Source: Collinsella tanakaei YIT 12063 (GTDB taxonomy: Bacteria; Actinomycetota; Coriobacteriia; Coriobacteriales; Coriobacteriaceae). From it: 53,268 nt of DNA. The position numbers and the translations under genes were made by a program. The notes under the pieces are model-generated. The model saw only the letters and a list, made by a program, of their open reading frames with translations, was not told the DNA's origin and did not search any database. Below, one piece after another: positions 624-8,113 of this stretch; the stretch's first letter is position 1; every line of letters starts with the position of its first letter. The stretch is from NCBI RefSeq assembly GCF_000225705.1, contig NZ_JH126471.1:1-53268 (forward strand), in the 5' to 3' direction.

Positions 624-989
624 ATGGCTAAATTTTTTAAGGCTGACGATACTTCTAATTTCGTGATTGCACTTACTGATAACGCTGCTGTTCCTACTGG
701 TTATTCTCTTGTAGAGGCAAATTCGATTGATGCTGCGGTTGAGAAGCATGTTCCTTCTATCGACCTGCAGCGCGATGGTCATATTATTCATGTGACTGTT
801 GGCGAAGTTGAGCACCCGATGACTGATGAGCACTATATTGAATGGGTTGCGCTTGAGGCTGATGATCGTCTGGAGGTTCACTATCTTAAGCCGGGTCAGA
901 CGCCCACTACCTTCTTTGCCGGTGGTGTTAAGTCGGGCACGGTTTATGCTTACTGCAATCTTCACGGTTTGTGGAAAGCGGCGTTTTAA
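624..989 (+). CDS. Superoxide reductase (desulfoferrodoxin/neelaredoxin family)
   Basis: This 121-residue protein should reduce superoxide to peroxide in the cytoplasm at a mononuclear Fe(His)4(Cys) centre, an oxygen defence typical of anaerobes. All ligands can be placed: His42 in EKHVP, His64 in EVEHPM, His70 in DEHYIEW, and Cys111 and His114 in CNLHGLW. Lys41, next to the first His, is the family's catalytic lysine. The first ~38 residues occupy the place of the desulforedoxin Fe(Cys)4 domain but contain no cysteine, so only the catalytic iron site should exist. A clear AAGGAG lies 7 bases before the ATG. The gene is monocistronic, between the rRNA terminator and its own terminator. Its codons are markedly T/A-ending compared with the rest of the window. 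Confidence 0.93.
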   Translation: MAKFFKADDTSNFVIALTDNAAVPTGYSLVEANSIDAAVEKHVPSIDLQRDGHIIHVTVGEVEHPMTDEHYIEWVALEADDRLEVHYLKPGQTPTTFFAGGVKSGTVYAYCNLHGLWKAAF

Positions 990-1001
990 TCGCTTGTGCT
1001 T

Positions 1002-1030
1002 AATAGCCGCCCGAAAGGGCGGCTATTTTT
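1002..1030 (+). terminator. Rho-independent terminator after the superoxide reductase gene
   Basis: An 11-bp stem AATAGCCGCCC / GGGCGGCTATT around a GAAA loop runs into TTTTTG. It starts 13 bases after the stop codon. Confidence 0.93.
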
Positions 1031-1099
1031 GTATCGAGCGCTTTCACGTTTTAAAATGGTGCTCAATTTCCACTGTGTACCTATCTTGAGGTGACAACT

Positions 1100-3091
1100 T
1101 TGAAAATCGCAATTGCTCAATTTGATGCTCGGCTAGGCGATATTGAGTCTATCTGCTCCAGAATCAAGGAGCAATCGCGTCTCGCTATCACTCATGATGT
1201 TAAGCTTCTCTGCGTTCCCGCTCCGTTGTTTTGCGGCGTTGCTCCTGGTTTGCTTATTGATAATCGCAATTTTGAGCACGATGTTATGCGGAGCTTGTTG
1301 GAACTCGCCTCTTGCTTTTCAGGGGATGAATTAACCATTCTCGTCCCTTTGGTTGTATCTATTGACGGGGCACCTCTTTTCGACGTGATAATGTTGAAAG
1401 AGGGCCGCGTAATTCCCAGCAGGCTCTTTTCTATGCATCAGCGTGAAGGTTCTGCTCTCGACATCTGGGCTCCTCCGATTTTTGAAGTTGGCGGATTACG
1501 GGTTGCTGTTTCCTTCGACGCTCAAAGAGATCTTCCTTTACTGCCTCAGGGCTGCGATGTCCTTGTCTATTTCCAGGCTAGTTCGTTTAACCAAGACGAT
1601 TGCTCTACTGCGGGAGTTTCGGGGCTTATTGAGGGTTCGCTCTGCAAGGCGGTGCGGGATCGTGGCATATGGCTTGCAGCGGTGTGCCCCGTTGGTTCTT
1701 TTGATGAATCCGTTTATACCGGCGGCTCCTATTTCTTAGATGAATCCGCTCGGCTCATTAGCGCGGCTCCTTCATTTGAAGAGTCACTTCTTATCCAAGA
1801 CGTTGTGCGAGGTACTCTGCTACCCGAGGTCGCCATTTCTGATGATTTTAGATTTAATAAGGAAGAGTGGCTTTGGAATGCTTTGCAAATCTATTTGCGC
1901 GACTCGCTTTCTCCTTACGGTTCTCGTCGAGTTGTAGTCGAGTTGGATGGGAGCCTCGCTTCCAGCCTGCTCGCTGTGCTTGCAGTCGATTCAATTGGAT
2001 CTCGTAACGTGATTGGCCTTCTTGTCGAAAGAGATGATGCGATTGCTCCCGAGCAGGTTGAGAAGGAATCTTTGCGACGTCGCCTGGTTAGAGATTTGTC
2101 GGCTAGTCTTCATATTCGGTTGGTAACGCGTTCGGCGGGCTTTCTTACCGAGAGCTTTGATAGGGATCGGTCTTGTCCAAATGCCGCTCGTAGCGAGAGC
2201 CTTGCGGTCTCGGTTATTCTTGAGGATCTGGCGGATGAGTATGGTGCGGTTATTTTGAGTCCTTTGACCAAGACCGACTATTCGCTGCCGGGCAAGCGCG
2301 TTGATAGATATCGATTTGCTTCGTTAGCGCCTTTTGGTGACGTGTTTCTTACGGATCTTGAATTTGTTGCTCGATATAGAAATAGGGTGTCCGAAGTCTT
2401 GCCTTCTTCGCTCGTTTCACTCTCTGAAGTTGAAGCTGCCATGTCTCGGGTTCTATACGACGCGATACGCGGGCGAGTTGAGGATAGGGATAGGGCTGCG
2501 CATGCTGCGGAGATTTTCTACAAGCTTGATGCTTCTCAAGTCGATGACGTTTTAAGGGCTGCTGTCGACCAAGGCAGGGTGTTTGAAGAAATTGGTCTTG
2601 CTCGTTCGGACGAGGACGCCGTTGCCTTGTTGCTGCTGATGATGAGAGCGGGGGAGGGCGATAGAAGGCGGATGGCTCCCTATCCGATAGTGTCGTCCAG
2701 GTCATTTAGCGAGCGAGCATGGCCTTCGCAGCTTGCTTGGTCCGATATGGGGCGCGATGGTCAGGAATCTCTATCGGCCGATGGCTTTGCCCTCGATGAA
2801 ATTCATAGGTTCGAGAAGAAGGGCGAGCAATTCGGGCGTAGGATGCGCGAGGAGATCGCTGGGCTTATCGGAGGGATGCTTGGCATCAGCCCGGAGCAAC
2901 TTCGTTCGATGATGGAAGGCGGCCAAGAAAGGCAGCGAGCAAACGCGGATGACCTTGATACAGCGGTTCAAGGCATGCCGGGGTCAATTGGGAGCCACGC
3001 ATCGAAAGGTTCCGAACAAGCGCATCTGGAGGGGATTCCGACTCCCCGGGGGATGAACCCGTCTGATTTCCCGTTCTTCTCGATAAATTAG
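1100..3091 (+). CDS. NAD synthetase-like protein with degenerate active sites (probable pseudoenzyme)
   Basis: The 663 residues follow the layout of glutamine-dependent NAD synthetase: an N-terminal nitrilase-type domain (~1-235) opening with KIAIAQFDARLGDI, then a PP-loop ATPase-like domain (~255-560). The catalytic residues are missing. The nitrilase Glu is Ala (VPAPLFCG), the Lys is replaced (IPSRLFSMH), and the nucleophile Cys position holds Phe (VAVSFDAQRD). The ATP-binding SGGxDS motif reads ELDGSLASS. The C-terminal ~90 residues form a helical tail (EKKGEQFGRRMREEIAGLIG) that the family normally lacks. I chose TTG at 1100 because GAGGTGA sits 6 bases before it and the product then begins MKIAIAQ; GTG at 1091 has no ribosome site. 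ruvC follows after 59 bases. The function is unknown: regulatory, structural or nucleotide sensing are all possible. Confidence 0.75.
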   Translation: MKIAIAQFDARLGDIESICSRIKEQSRLAITHDVKLLCVPAPLFCGVAPGLLIDNRNFEHDVMRSLLELASCFSGDELTILVPLVVSIDGAPLFDVIMLKEGRVIPSRLFSMHQREGSALDIWAPPIFEVGGLRVAVSFDAQRDLPLLPQGCDVLVYFQASSFNQDDCSTAGVSGLIEGSLCKAVRDRGIWLAAVCPVGSFDESVYTGGSYFLDESARLISAAPSFEESLLIQDVVRGTLLPEVAISDDFRFNKEEWLWNALQIYLRDSLSPYGSRRVVVELDGSLASSLLAVLAVDSIGSRNVIGLLVERDDAIAPEQVEKESLRRRLVRDLSASLHIRLVTRSAGFLTESFDRDRSCPNAARSESLAVSVILEDLADEYGAVILSPLTKTDYSLPGKRVDRYRFASLAPFGDVFLTDLEFVARYRNRVSEVLPSSLVSLSEVEAAMSRVLYDAIRGRVEDRDRAAHAAEIFYKLDASQVDDVLRAAVDQGRVFEEIGLARSDEDAVALLLLMMRAGEGDRRRMAPYPIVSSRSFSERAWPSQLAWSDMGRDGQESLSADGFALDEIHRFEKKGEQFGRRMREEIAGLIGGMLGISPEQLRSMMEGGQERQRANADDLDTAVQGMPGSIGSHASKGSEQAHLEGIPTPRGMNPSDFPFFSIN

Positions 3092-3114
3092 GACGATTGT
3101 TTGCGAACCCATGA

Positions 3115-3120
3115 TATAGT
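3115..3120 (+). promoter_or_regulatory. -10 element upstream of ruvC
   Basis: TATAGT lies 31 bases before the ruvC ATG and directly before the LexA box. No convincing -35 hexamer is seen 16-18 bases upstream. This suggests a LexA-occluded promoter for ruvCAB, separate from any read-through from the upstream gene. Confidence 0.5.
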
Positions 3121-3121
3121 A

Positions 3122-3133
3122 GAACAAACGTTC
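3122..3133. promoter_or_regulatory. LexA (SOS) box in front of ruvCAB
   Basis: GAACAAACGTTC fits the Gram-positive/actinobacterial LexA operator GAAC-N4-GTTC. It lies between the -10-like TATAGT and the ruvC start, a position where a bound repressor would block initiation. DNA-damage induction of ruv genes is well established in other bacteria, so this site fits its neighbours. Confidence 0.85.
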
Positions 3134-3150
3134 GAATTGGAAGGTAGCGA

Positions 3151-3675
3151 ATGATTGTTCTAGGAATAGATCCGGGGCTCGCTAATACGGGGTGGGGGAT
3201 TATCGAGGAGCGATCAGGCCAAGTGAGGTGCCGGGCCTACGGGTGCATCAAGACGTCCGCGGGTAGCGACTTGGCCGTTCGCTTGCGTCATATCGCCGAT
3301 GACGTGAATGCCGTCGTCGAGCGCTACCATCCTGAAGAAGCTGCCATCGAGGGCGTATACTTTGGCGCAAATGTGCGGTCGGCTATACCGACTGCGCATG
3401 CGCGCGGGGCTGCCTTGGTCGCCTGCTCATTATGCGGAGTCGAAGTTGGAGAATACACTCCTATGCAGATTAAGCAGGCAGTGGTTGGTACGGGCGCTGC
3501 GGATAAGGCGCAAGTTGCCTATATGGTTCGAACGCTGCTCCACTTGGACCATGATCCAAGGCCGGACCATGCGGCGGATGCCCTGGCGTGCGCGATCTGC
3601 CACACACATCTTCGACGCACCGCTCAGTTGAGCAAAGGCTCCTACATGATTGAGAGAGGGAACGGTTACTCATGA
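3151..3675 (+). CDS. ruvC: Holliday junction resolvase RuvC
   Basis: RuvC is a dimeric endonuclease that cuts four-way junctions after RuvAB branch migration. The 174 residues have the RNase H-like fold signature GIDPGLANTGWG. The acidic site reads Asp7, Glu67 (AAIEGVYFG), His140 and Asp143 (DHAADALA), the DE-HD set of the Thermus-type enzyme rather than all-acidic E. coli RuvC. The length is normal. GGAAGG lies 8-13 bases upstream of the ATG. The stop codon overlaps the ruvA start by 4 bases (ATGA), so translation is probably coupled. A LexA box precedes the gene. Confidence 0.97.
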   Translation: MIVLGIDPGLANTGWGIIEERSGQVRCRAYGCIKTSAGSDLAVRLRHIADDVNAVVERYHPEEAAIEGVYFGANVRSAIPTAHARGAALVACSLCGVEVGEYTPMQIKQAVVGTGAADKAQVAYMVRTLLHLDHDPRPDHAADALACAICHTHLRRTAQLSKGSYMIERGNGYS

Positions 3676-4289
3676 TTTCGCAACTACGAGGAACATTGCT
3701 TGAGGCAACCGCGGCCGCCGTTGTGCTCGATGTGTCTGGAGTGGGATTTGAGCTGGGGGTGTCGGGCGCTACGGCGGCGATGCTGCCTCAAATTGGTAAA
3801 GAGTGCAGACTGTATACCAGAATGCAAGTGCGAGAGGATGCGATGACGCTCTTTGGGTTTGCCACCAAAGAGGAAAGGACCATGTTTGATCGCCTGGTTT
3901 CCATTACAGGCGTTGGGCCTCGTCTTGCTTTAGCGGTTTTGAGTAAATACAGCGTGTCGCAACTGTACTCAATTGTTATGGCGGAGGACGAGAAGGGCAT
4001 GTCGAGCGTGTCCGGGGTGGGAAAAAAGACGGCACAGCGCCTCATTCTCGAACTTAAAAGCGTCTTTGCGAAGGACAAGGGATTCGTACCCTCCGACACG
4101 CCCGCGTCCCTTCCGCTTGGCGCTGTTGCAGCGCCTTCGGACACCTCGCTCGATGACGCGCGCGCCGCCCTTCTGTCCATGGGCTTCAGTCCGCAAGAAG
4201 CCGAGCTCGCGCTTGAGGGTTTTGATGGCTCTATGAGAGTAGAAGATTTGCTTGCGGGCGCCCTTAAGCGATTGGGGATGGATGCATGA
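3672..4289 (+). CDS. ruvA: Holliday junction branch migration protein RuvA
   Basis: RuvA binds four-way DNA junctions as a tetramer and loads the RuvB motor. The 205 residues show the N-terminal OB-fold ([12 protein letters not shown]... GVGFEL), the middle helix-hairpin-helix pair with [14 protein letters not shown] and [18 protein letters not shown], a flexible Pro/Ala/Ser linker (~140-160), and the C-terminal RuvB-contacting three-helix domain ([21 protein letters not shown]). Start and stop overlap ruvC and ruvB by four bases each, giving a tight ruvC-ruvA-ruvB transcript. Confidence 0.97.
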
Positions 4290-5383
4290 TGTGGGAAGCT
4301 GATGAGTCCCAGGATCTTTGGGCGGATACGCAAGCGGTTCACAACGCTTCGGGGCGACCGAGCGGCGGGTCGATGCGAGAGGCCGGTAGATTTGTTACGG
4401 GCGACCTGACGTCCGACGACCTTGATGTCGAGCGAACTCTTCGTCCGCAGATGCTTGATGACTATTGCGGTCAAGACCATATCAAAGAAAGCTTGAGAAT
4501 ACTGATAGCCGCGGCTCAAAGTCGTGGCGAGAGCCTCGATCATGTTATCTTTTCGGGTCCTCCTGGTCTGGGCAAAACCACCCTTGCCGCCGTGGTCGCC
4601 AATGAGTTGGGTGCGCAGATCAAAACAACCTCGGGTCCGGCTATTGAAAGGACTGGAGATTTGGCGGCGATTCTGACAAATCTCCAGCCCGGTGACGTCT
4701 TGTTTATAGATGAGATCCACCGACTCAACCGTTCGGTCGAAGAAGTGTTGTATCCGGCAATGGAGGACTTCGCTCTCGATATTGTCATTGGCAAGGGTCC
4801 CGCAGCGCGCTCTATTCGACTTGATATCCCGCGTTTCACACTGGTCGGCGCGACCACGCGCTCAGGCATGTTGACCGGTCCTTTGCGTGATAGGTTCGGC
4901 ATCTCTTTTCGCTTGGACTACTACTCCATCGACGATTTGGCTCAGATTGTTTCTCGATCGGCTTCGATCCTCGGGGTTCTCATCGATTTGCCCTCGGCTA
5001 AGGAGATTGCTTCCAGATCGCGCGGTACTCCTCGACTCGCCAATCGCCTGCTTAAGCGCGTAAGAGATTACGCCCAGGTTAGGGGAACGGGCGCAATCAC
5101 ACTTGATATTACACGCGAAGCGCTTGAATTCTTTGAGATTGACGAGCTTGGGCTGGATTGGATGGATATTCGTATCCTTGAGACCCTGTGTAAGACCTTT
5201 AGGGGCAGGGCGGTTGGTTTGACAACGCTTGCGAGCGCGATAGGAGAGGACCCGTCAACGTTGGAAGATGTGTACGAGCCCTATCTTTTGCAGCGCGGCC
5301 TTATCGTAAGGACGCCTCAAGGTCGCGTGGCCACCCTGGCCGCGTTTGAGCACCTACATGTGGAACCACCCTCCCATATCTAG
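4286..5383 (+). CDS. ruvB: Holliday junction branch migration ATPase RuvB
   Basis: RuvB is the AAA+ hexameric motor that drives branch migration with RuvA. In the 365 residues I see an N-terminal extension of ~50 residues ending at [15 protein letters not shown], Walker [12 protein letters not shown], Walker [11 protein letters not shown], the sensor region [18 protein letters not shown] with the arginine finger, and a C-terminal winged-helix domain ([14 protein letters not shown]). The N-terminal extension is somewhat longer than in E. coli RuvB. Two ATG codons lie in tandem at the ruvA overlap (4286 and 4289); the first gives the coupled ATGA arrangement. Confidence 0.97.
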
Positions 5384-7261: not shown

Positions 7262-8113
7262 ATGGCCACCGTTATTGATGGAAAGGGGCTTGCCGCCAAG
7301 ATGCGTGCGGAGGCCGCCAAGGATGTTGCGGCGCTTAAGCGCGCAGGGGTGAATCCCGGCCTTGCCGTGGTTCTCGTCGGCGACGATCAAGCCTCTGCGA
7401 CCTATGTGCGCTCGAAGCTTCGCGATTGCGAGGAGTGCGGTATCGCATCCTTTGACTACAAACTCCCTGCGGACGCATCGCAAGATGAGATTTTGCAGCT
7501 TGTTCGAAACCTCAATGACGACCCTAAGATCACGGGCATCTTGGTTCAGATGCCCCTGCCGTCGCACTTGGATGCGGAGGAGATTATCGAGGCCATATCG
7601 CCCTTGAAAGATGTTGACGGATTTCATCCAACGAGTTTGGGCAGGCTGGTAAGGGGGCTGCCCGGCCTTCGTCCCTGCACGCCCGCCGGTATCATGGTTA
7701 TGCTGGACGAGTACAACATAGAGTTGGCGGGCAAGAACGCGGTGATTGTTGGGCGTTCTTCAATTGTTGGAAAACCCATGGCGCATATGCTGCTCGAGCG
7801 CGACGCGACGATTTCCGTTGCACATTCGCGTACGCGGAACCTGGACGAAATCTGCCGTTCTGCCGATATCCTGGTAGTGGCTTGCGGCATCGCCAGGCTT
7901 GTCAAGGGCGACTGGGTGCGTCCCGGCGCAACCGTTATCGACGTGGGCATGGATAGGGATGAGGACGGTAGGTTGTGCGGCGACGTTGACTACGACGACG
8001 TCTTTAACGTGGCGGGCGCCATCACCCCTGTCCCGGGAGGCGTGGGGCCCATGACCAGGGCCATGCTTATGAGCAACGTGGTGACCGCCGCGCGCATGCA
8101 GGCCGAGGCATAG
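7262..8113 (+). CDS. folD: Bifunctional methylene-THF dehydrogenase/methenyl-THF cyclohydrolase
   Basis: FolD interconverts 5,10-methylene-, 5,10-methenyl- and 10-formyl-THF using NADP(H). The 283 residues include the substrate-site YVRSKLRDCEECGI with its catalytic Lys, the QMPLPSHLD block, DVDGFHP, the Rossmann motif VIVGRSSIVGKPMA and the C-terminal TPVPGGVGPMTRAML. The length is typical. The ATG has TAAGGAG about 8 bases upstream. Its product is the substrate of the upstream Fhs, so the pair works in one pathway. Confidence 0.97.
   Translation: MATVIDGKGLAAKMRAEAAKDVAALKRAGVNPGLAVVLVGDDQASATYVRSKLRDCEECGIASFDYKLPADASQDEILQLVRNLNDDPKITGILVQMPLPSHLDAEEIIEAISPLKDVDGFHPTSLGRLVRGLPGLRPCTPAGIMVMLDEYNIELAGKNAVIVGRSSIVGKPMAHMLLERDATISVAHSRTRNLDEICRSADILVVACGIARLVKGDWVRPGATVIDVGMDRDEDGRLCGDVDYDDVFNVAGAITPVPGGVGPMTRAMLMSNVVTAARMQAEA

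Follow-up and report, generated by a model that had tools for sequence, protein, structure and literature searches.

nadX, a conserved and putatively inactive NAD synthetase descendant with a C-terminal FSxN tip in Collinsella and related bacteria

The nadX locus and its neighborhood

The window, i.e. the whole stretch of Collinsella tanakaei DNA that was analyzed, comprises 53,268 nucleotides. An open reading frame on its forward strand (1100..3091) was found by homology to encode a NadE-derived protein of 663 amino acids, predicted to be catalytically dead, for which the name nadX is coined here. The frame starts with TTG at 1100, following an AGGTGA-like ribosome site, and is unbroken over 663 codons, as stated in the initial annotation. 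Its conserved upstream neighbor on the same strand is a superoxide reductase gene of the desulfoferrodoxin family (624..989; PF01880, E = 3.1e-18), and an intrinsic-terminator-like hairpin of 11 pairs (1002..1027, forward strand) lies between both genes. Five terminator-like sites were counted in the region versus 3.5 expected, this hairpin being much the strongest. Downstream, ruvC (3151..3675, forward; PF02075, E = 4.9e-53) follows after exactly the 59 bases reported before, and the next forward-strand genes, 3672..4289 and 4286..5383, were taken to be ruvA and ruvB from sequence and position. The gap between nadX and ruvC contains the box GAACAAACGTTC (3122..3133, no strand assigned), which we take to be LexA-type. 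The window opens at a contig end within the 3′ end of a 23S rRNA gene (1-123), followed by a 5S rRNA gene (283-398), with a GC content near 70%; the superoxide reductase-nadX-ruvCAB locus is thus situated directly behind a ribosomal RNA operon.

For the comparison with other genomes, f1 denotes the family of the window (Collinsella and kin, presumably Coriobacteriaceae), f2 the sister family with Olsenella and Atopobium (presumably Atopobiaceae) and f3 a family assumed to be Eggerthellaceae; f23 to f29 are other families. The usual gene order was dnaE-(superoxide reductase)-nadX-ruvC-ruvA-ruvB, the first gene being presumably dnaE. The linkage to ruvC, a point that the initial annotation had proposed to check, was conserved, with ruvC located 3′ of nadX in 37/37 f1 and 30/31 f2 loci. 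The superoxide reductase gene was found 5′ of nadX in 37/37 f1 and 23/31 f2 loci, and dnaE was present upstream on the same strand in the fetched sequence of 25/31 f2 loci and, roughly 3.6 kb farther upstream, in all 19 full-length Collinsella loci.

The initial annotation had placed nadX before SOS-controlled ruvCAB. The synteny stood, but a LexA-type box within the gap separates nadX from these genes: GAACN4GTTC was present between nadX and ruvC in all loci tested that have ruvC downstream (62/62), while no such box was found within 250 bp upstream of nadX (63/63 f1 and f2 loci), so that nadX has no LexA box in its own promoter region. Since the box lies inside the gap, nadX is positioned before and not within the SOS unit. 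Membership in the SOS regulon was therefore rejected as a candidate; nadX seems to lie outside the SOS unit and may be transcribed separately, ahead of it. A scan for sigma-70-type promoters in 950-3300 retrieved none for nadX or ruvC, with 1.7 expected from shuffled sequences.

Loss of both active sites and gain of a tail

The nadX protein consists of a degenerate nitrilase (glutaminase) domain (residues 1-242; 1100..1825, forward), a degenerate NAD synthetase (PP-loop) domain (residues 243-549; 1826..2746, forward) and a C-terminal tail of 114 residues (550-663; 2747..3088, forward) without Pfam match. The first domain scored 19.5 bits with PF00795, under the cut-off of 23.2, and the second was barely above cut-off with PF02540 (22.6-24.3 bits vs 21), with 52 residues matched only. 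Similarly, the family model NF010588 matched at E = 1.6e-25 but reached only 89.5 of the 479 bits required, and TIGR00552 gave 11.6 bits vs 63.65. Homology was clear over the whole core. Using phmmer, nadX matched PDB entry 5kha (E = 1.7e-16) as well as 4f4h and 3n05. A profile of the 45-member nadX family matched 5kha with E = 2.6e-71 over positions 2-519, and a profile-profile comparison with five canonical class members, the check proposed earlier, resulted in a probability of 100 and E = 1.8e-59 over 505 columns. The two-domain layout of NadE, read from the sequence in the initial annotation, was thus borne out by homology, with a nitrilase part followed by a PP-loop synthetase part, and nadX, by sequence, descends from the short two-domain glutamine-dependent NadE of the order.

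Structure prediction gave less. The AlphaFold model, made from a shallow alignment, was poor (mean pLDDT 47.7) and did not place the tail. When it was used as a query in Foldseek, NadEs ranked first (E around 1e-18) with low TM-scores; the structure comparison suggested earlier was therefore favorable, but weakly so because of the poor model.

The glutaminase triad of NadE is Cys-Glu-Lys (PMC6946656). In the nadX protein of the window, the Glu is replaced by Ala41, as previously noted. Which residue fills the Lys column varies with the alignment (Phe110 or Met112), Lys being absent either way, so that the earlier "Arg-like" was inexact; the Cys is lost as claimed, its column holding Phe139 or Asp140 rather than Phe alone. 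The PP-loop motif SGGxDS reads DGSLAS, in agreement with the change noted before, within the remnant DGSLASS (1946..1966, forward; canonical SGGIDSA) recognized by alignment. The losses extend to the orthologues. None of 63 aligned nadX loci (37 f1 and 26 f2) keeps Glu, Lys, Cys or SGGxDS in the respective columns, and both triad and SGGxDS are likewise gone in four additional f2 loci (0/4 keep SGGxDS). As a control, all five N-terminally complete canonical class members carried Glu, Lys, Cys and SGGxDS; a sixth, truncated at its N-terminus, was kept outside this count. Allowing two columns on either side of the triad positions, Glu was found in 0, Lys in 6 and Cys in 4 of the 63 loci, all of f2.

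Near-invariant columns were defined on 21 relatives with intact synthetase motifs and compared with 28 pseudoenzyme rows, one divergent row (L114) being excluded. The synthetase domain had lost 68 of 78 such columns, keeping 10; the nitrilase domain had kept 8 of 12. SGGxDS, ENLQAR, NKSE and GYSTLYGD, among which we assume are the motifs binding ATP and deamido-NAD, are gone in the f1 and f2 rows shown, with only the Lys of NKSE staying. Within the old synthetase domain, Lys391 and Asp414 are invariant in 45 proteins. Judged by residues, nadX would be catalytically dead at both active sites.

The initial annotation had reported an extra tail of about 90 residues. A tail is indeed present, but it is longer (114 residues) and its tip, FSIN (3077..3088, forward), the part of the tail that is conserved best, had been overlooked. 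The tail is composed of a predicted helical part (low-confidence model), followed by a linker with many polar, Gly and Pro residues. Tail length ranged from 67 to 130 residues in 30 rows, the linker varying in both length and sequence, and the pattern [FYLC]L[RKQ][DE], a common helix-like segment often reading YLRDF, was present in 27 of 30 f2 tails. FSxN ended all 67 f1 and f2 loci translated in full (37 and 30, respectively), the divergent nadX of the f2 genome G304 and two f23 proteins (L099, and L122, the C-terminal fragment of G204), i.e. 70 of the 70 copies examined. These copies represent 68 of the 130 f1 and f2 genomes having nadX plus two of three f23 genomes, and the loci checked were partly the best-ranked in the search and partly hand-picked. 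Three of the 14 invariant columns of the 45 proteins fall within the last four residues.

At the DNA level the tip is variable. Among 68 loci, Phe was encoded by TTC or TTT, Ser by five codons, and all three stops were used; in 19 close copies, synonymous sites were saturated across the final 11 codons (pS 0.776, pN 0.043). Selection thus acts on the peptide and not on the DNA. In the genome of the window, nadX is the only place where FFSxN precedes a stop, versus two occurrences of the reversed-pattern control. FSxN followed by a true stop was found at three places outside the window (C1:524172, C4:149845 and C5:149768), none of which ends an ORF of at least 100 amino acids, and once more in the window (7760-7774), antisense inside a gene taken to be folD. 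A tag common to other proteins was considered and rejected, none of the three sites outside the window being the end of an ORF of at least 100 amino acids.

Distribution, replacement and stepwise origin

A nadX profile was searched against 247 genomes of the order. Strong matches were obtained in 65/65 f1 genomes (weakest 5.4e-173) and 64/66 f2 genomes (at most 2.5e-78), the exceptions being G304 and G054. G304 gave a weak match (8.2e-33); its nadX frame (L140:1142-4399) is very divergent, with little similarity left, counts 1085 codons, lies directly before ruvC and carries an acidic tail several hundred residues long, yet ends in NNPFSIN. No match for nadX, ruvC, superoxide reductase or dnaE was found in G054, and ruvB gave only partial matches (36-38% identical), with no true ruvB. 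This assembly is a single contig rated 99% complete; probably the whole nadX block is missing from it. A first scan for nadX in named genomes gave no match, and a second, using a closer query, retrieved 20 Collinsella loci.

Selection was estimated from 19 Collinsella copies outside the lineage of the window itself, each with 44-45% identity to its nadX protein. Median pairwise dN/dS was 0.060 (maximum 0.125) and none of the 19 copies contained stops. Values for comparison were 0.011 for ruvC, 0.010 for ruvB, 0.029 for ruvA and 0.075 for the superoxide reductase gene. With 0.060 and no stops, nadX is under purifying selection, looser than that on ruvC. Stops, frameshifts and relaxed selection, the marks of a pseudogene, were thus not observed, and the earlier suggestion of a maintained, conserved pseudoenzyme with a new tail was corroborated: going by the sequences, nadX qualifies as a protein whose catalytic residues were lost while purifying selection was kept.

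The initial annotation had advised searching for a second, intact nadE, and one was found in the genome of the window near G000:C1:175002; it is a long NadE with the triad motifs present and no FSxN end. Searches with TIGR00552 resulted in exactly one match above cut-off in each of 14/14 f1 and 27/27 f2 genomes, never nadX, and all 16 of these longer NadEs that were translated carry SGGLDS. In a quick unrooted tree with weak inner support, the longer NadEs of f1 and f2 formed one group with one f3 row inside. By length and motifs we take them to be of the M. tuberculosis type, which is octameric. The long NadE appears to carry out NAD synthesis in f1 and f2 genomes. A division of NadE into octameric and homodimeric groups is described in PMC6946656.

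Relatives in other families kept part of the ancestral state. Fourteen loci of f24, f25, f26, f28 and f29 and one f3 locus (L100-L109, L111, L112, L115, L116 and L065) show no Glu, Lys or Cys in the triad columns but have kept SGG[IL]DS along with the remaining synthetase motifs; a Cys turns up in L106 and a Lys in L103 if two columns on either side are allowed. This pattern suggests that the short NadE of these families switched to free ammonia while keeping a dead glutaminase domain. An Asn also ends the tail of six f25 members (DILEN, DISAN, GIMRN and, in three of them, NFLDN), and these tails are possibly a looser form of that of nadX. In f23, L099 (genome G197) has lost the triad, kept the synthetase motifs and ends in an FSKN tail, with a superoxide reductase gene adjoining. 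In G204 the PP-loop is damaged (AGDLDS), the copy being divided between two contigs, and a further NadE is encoded separately; in the third f23 genome, G210 (89% complete), no clear nadX copy was found. A tree from core columns only placed the two f23 rows next to f1 plus f2 (100/99), with f1 and f2 together (100/100).

In 21 genomes of f23 to f29, TIGR00552 matched above cut-off at the place of the nadX orthologue in 15, in other frames of two-domain length in three (G201, G203 and G205) and only elsewhere in G204; G200 and G210 gave no match. G197 had no second match above cut-off, and G144 and G205 had two each. The latter two genomes encode a short NadE whose synthetase motifs are intact plus a second, long NadE (L157 and L158) belonging to another subgroup than the long NadE of f1 and f2; they are possible transitional states.

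The sequences point to an order of events in which loss of the glutaminase was followed by gain of the tail and then by replacement together with loss of the synthetase, the FSxN tail being apparently older than full catalytic death. With no clear copy in G210 and a split one in G204, the age of the tail rests mainly on the one intact f23 protein.

Possible functions of nadX

Among the open-access papers listed by the literature searches, none dealt with a catalytically dead NadE from these bacteria. PMC4403557, in the part available, is not about such a protein, and a word search of the main text of PMC3376133, on the NadE family, retrieved neither Collinsella nor Atopobium nor "inactive".

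Both active sites of nadX were lost and its work was taken over, yet the gene was kept with a constant tip; nadX therefore probably has a second job. The explanation we favor, with somewhat more confidence than doubt, is that nadX is a NadE-like dead-enzyme scaffold whose C-terminal FSxN tail docks one conserved partner. Its history, as far as the sequences show it, is as follows. Members in the other families lost the nitrilase Glu-Lys-Cys triad while keeping the synthetase motifs; a tail ending in FSxN was then present in f23, where the synthetase motifs of one member remain intact; on the common branch of f1 and f2 the synthetase site was destroyed, a different, longer NadE being found in 41/41 genomes sampled. 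We infer that, before NAD synthesis passed to the longer NadE, the old protein was already serving in another, non-catalytic role, and that this role would be the reason why it survived replacement. The scaffold is expected to be folded, NadE-like and probably a dimer, as are the closest relatives of known structure; the last four residues, FSxN with its free carboxylate, would plug into a pocket of the partner, and the variable linker would tether them to the body, by analogy with other proteins whose C-terminal tip is conserved. Alternatively, the tip could bind nadX itself, for instance a neighboring subunit, and nadX may bind a ligand, in view of the invariant Lys391 and Asp414. A more far-reaching version, which we regard as possible but doubtful, is that the enzyme was converted via still-living intermediates into a non-enzymatic hub, FSxN recruiting one or more core proteins, possibly DnaE/RuvCAB, in an SSB-like manner. 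If true, this would represent an undescribed bacterial C-terminal docking code.

Somewhat less probable still is that nadX cooperates with RuvCAB or DnaE in repairing or replicating DNA. The conserved gene order favors it, and in genome G096 nadX begins right after the dnaE stop codon. That same copy, however, lies away from ruvCAB and the tailed f23 protein of G197 away from both dnaE and ruvCAB, the tip being kept in each; in addition, the LexA-type box splits nadX from ruvC, none precedes nadX, and the terminator-like hairpin precedes it in the window. The absence of both nadX and ruvCAB from G054 is void as support, since dnaE and the superoxide reductase gene are missing there too. Synteny with ruvCAB and dnaE is a lead and not a proof of a repair role, and the link to DNA repair raised in the initial annotation drew on synteny alone.

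We give slightly less credence to nadX regulating the longer NadE or assembling with it as a pseudo-subunit. Both proteins co-occur in 40 of 41 f1 and f2 genomes checked, the exception being G054 with its missing nadX block. They differ strongly, however, nadX as a query failing to find the long NadE of its own genome at E = 0.001, and G197 carries the FSxN tail on a protein with intact motifs without a second match above cut-off, which argues that the tail is independent of the longer enzyme.

Sensing of a nucleotide or NAD precursor through the old synthetase pocket is unlikely, including the sensing of NAD precursors proposed in the initial annotation: Lys391 and Asp414 are invariant and the core can be aligned with NadE over its full length, but the four synthetase motifs and 68 of 78 near-invariant columns are gone. 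Finally, a decaying gene or a divergent, still active NAD synthetase, in line with the family-level similarity (45/45 members match NF010588 at E = 0.001), can hardly be maintained and was rejected, the former by the dN/dS, the lack of stops and the presence of nadX in nearly all f1 and f2 genomes, the latter, as far as motifs can tell, by the destroyed active sites and the intact NadE elsewhere.

A dead scaffold docking one partner thus remains the preferred reading. The order preserves a path from a bifunctional enzyme over a synthetase without glutaminase to a dead scaffold, and the invariant C-terminal tetrapeptide offers a direct handle on the second function. As nadX is matched by NAD synthase models in family searches, it could mislead NAD-pathway reconstructions in common gut and oral bacteria.

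Compared with known systems, nadX is closest to the short two-domain NadE (NF010588; 5kha, 4f4h and 3n05), with which it shares whole-core homology, domain order and core length. It differs in the absence of triad and PP-loop, in a score far below the family cut-off and in an added tail of about 70-130 residues ending in FSxN. The long, M. tuberculosis-type glutamine-dependent NadE is a distant relative, having SGGLDS (16/16) and no FSxN end. Bacterial SSB likewise ends in a conserved tip carried by a variable linker, and nadX resembles it in that its last residues are invariant and its linker is not; the tip of SSB is acidic, whereas that of nadX is FSxN on a NadE-like body.
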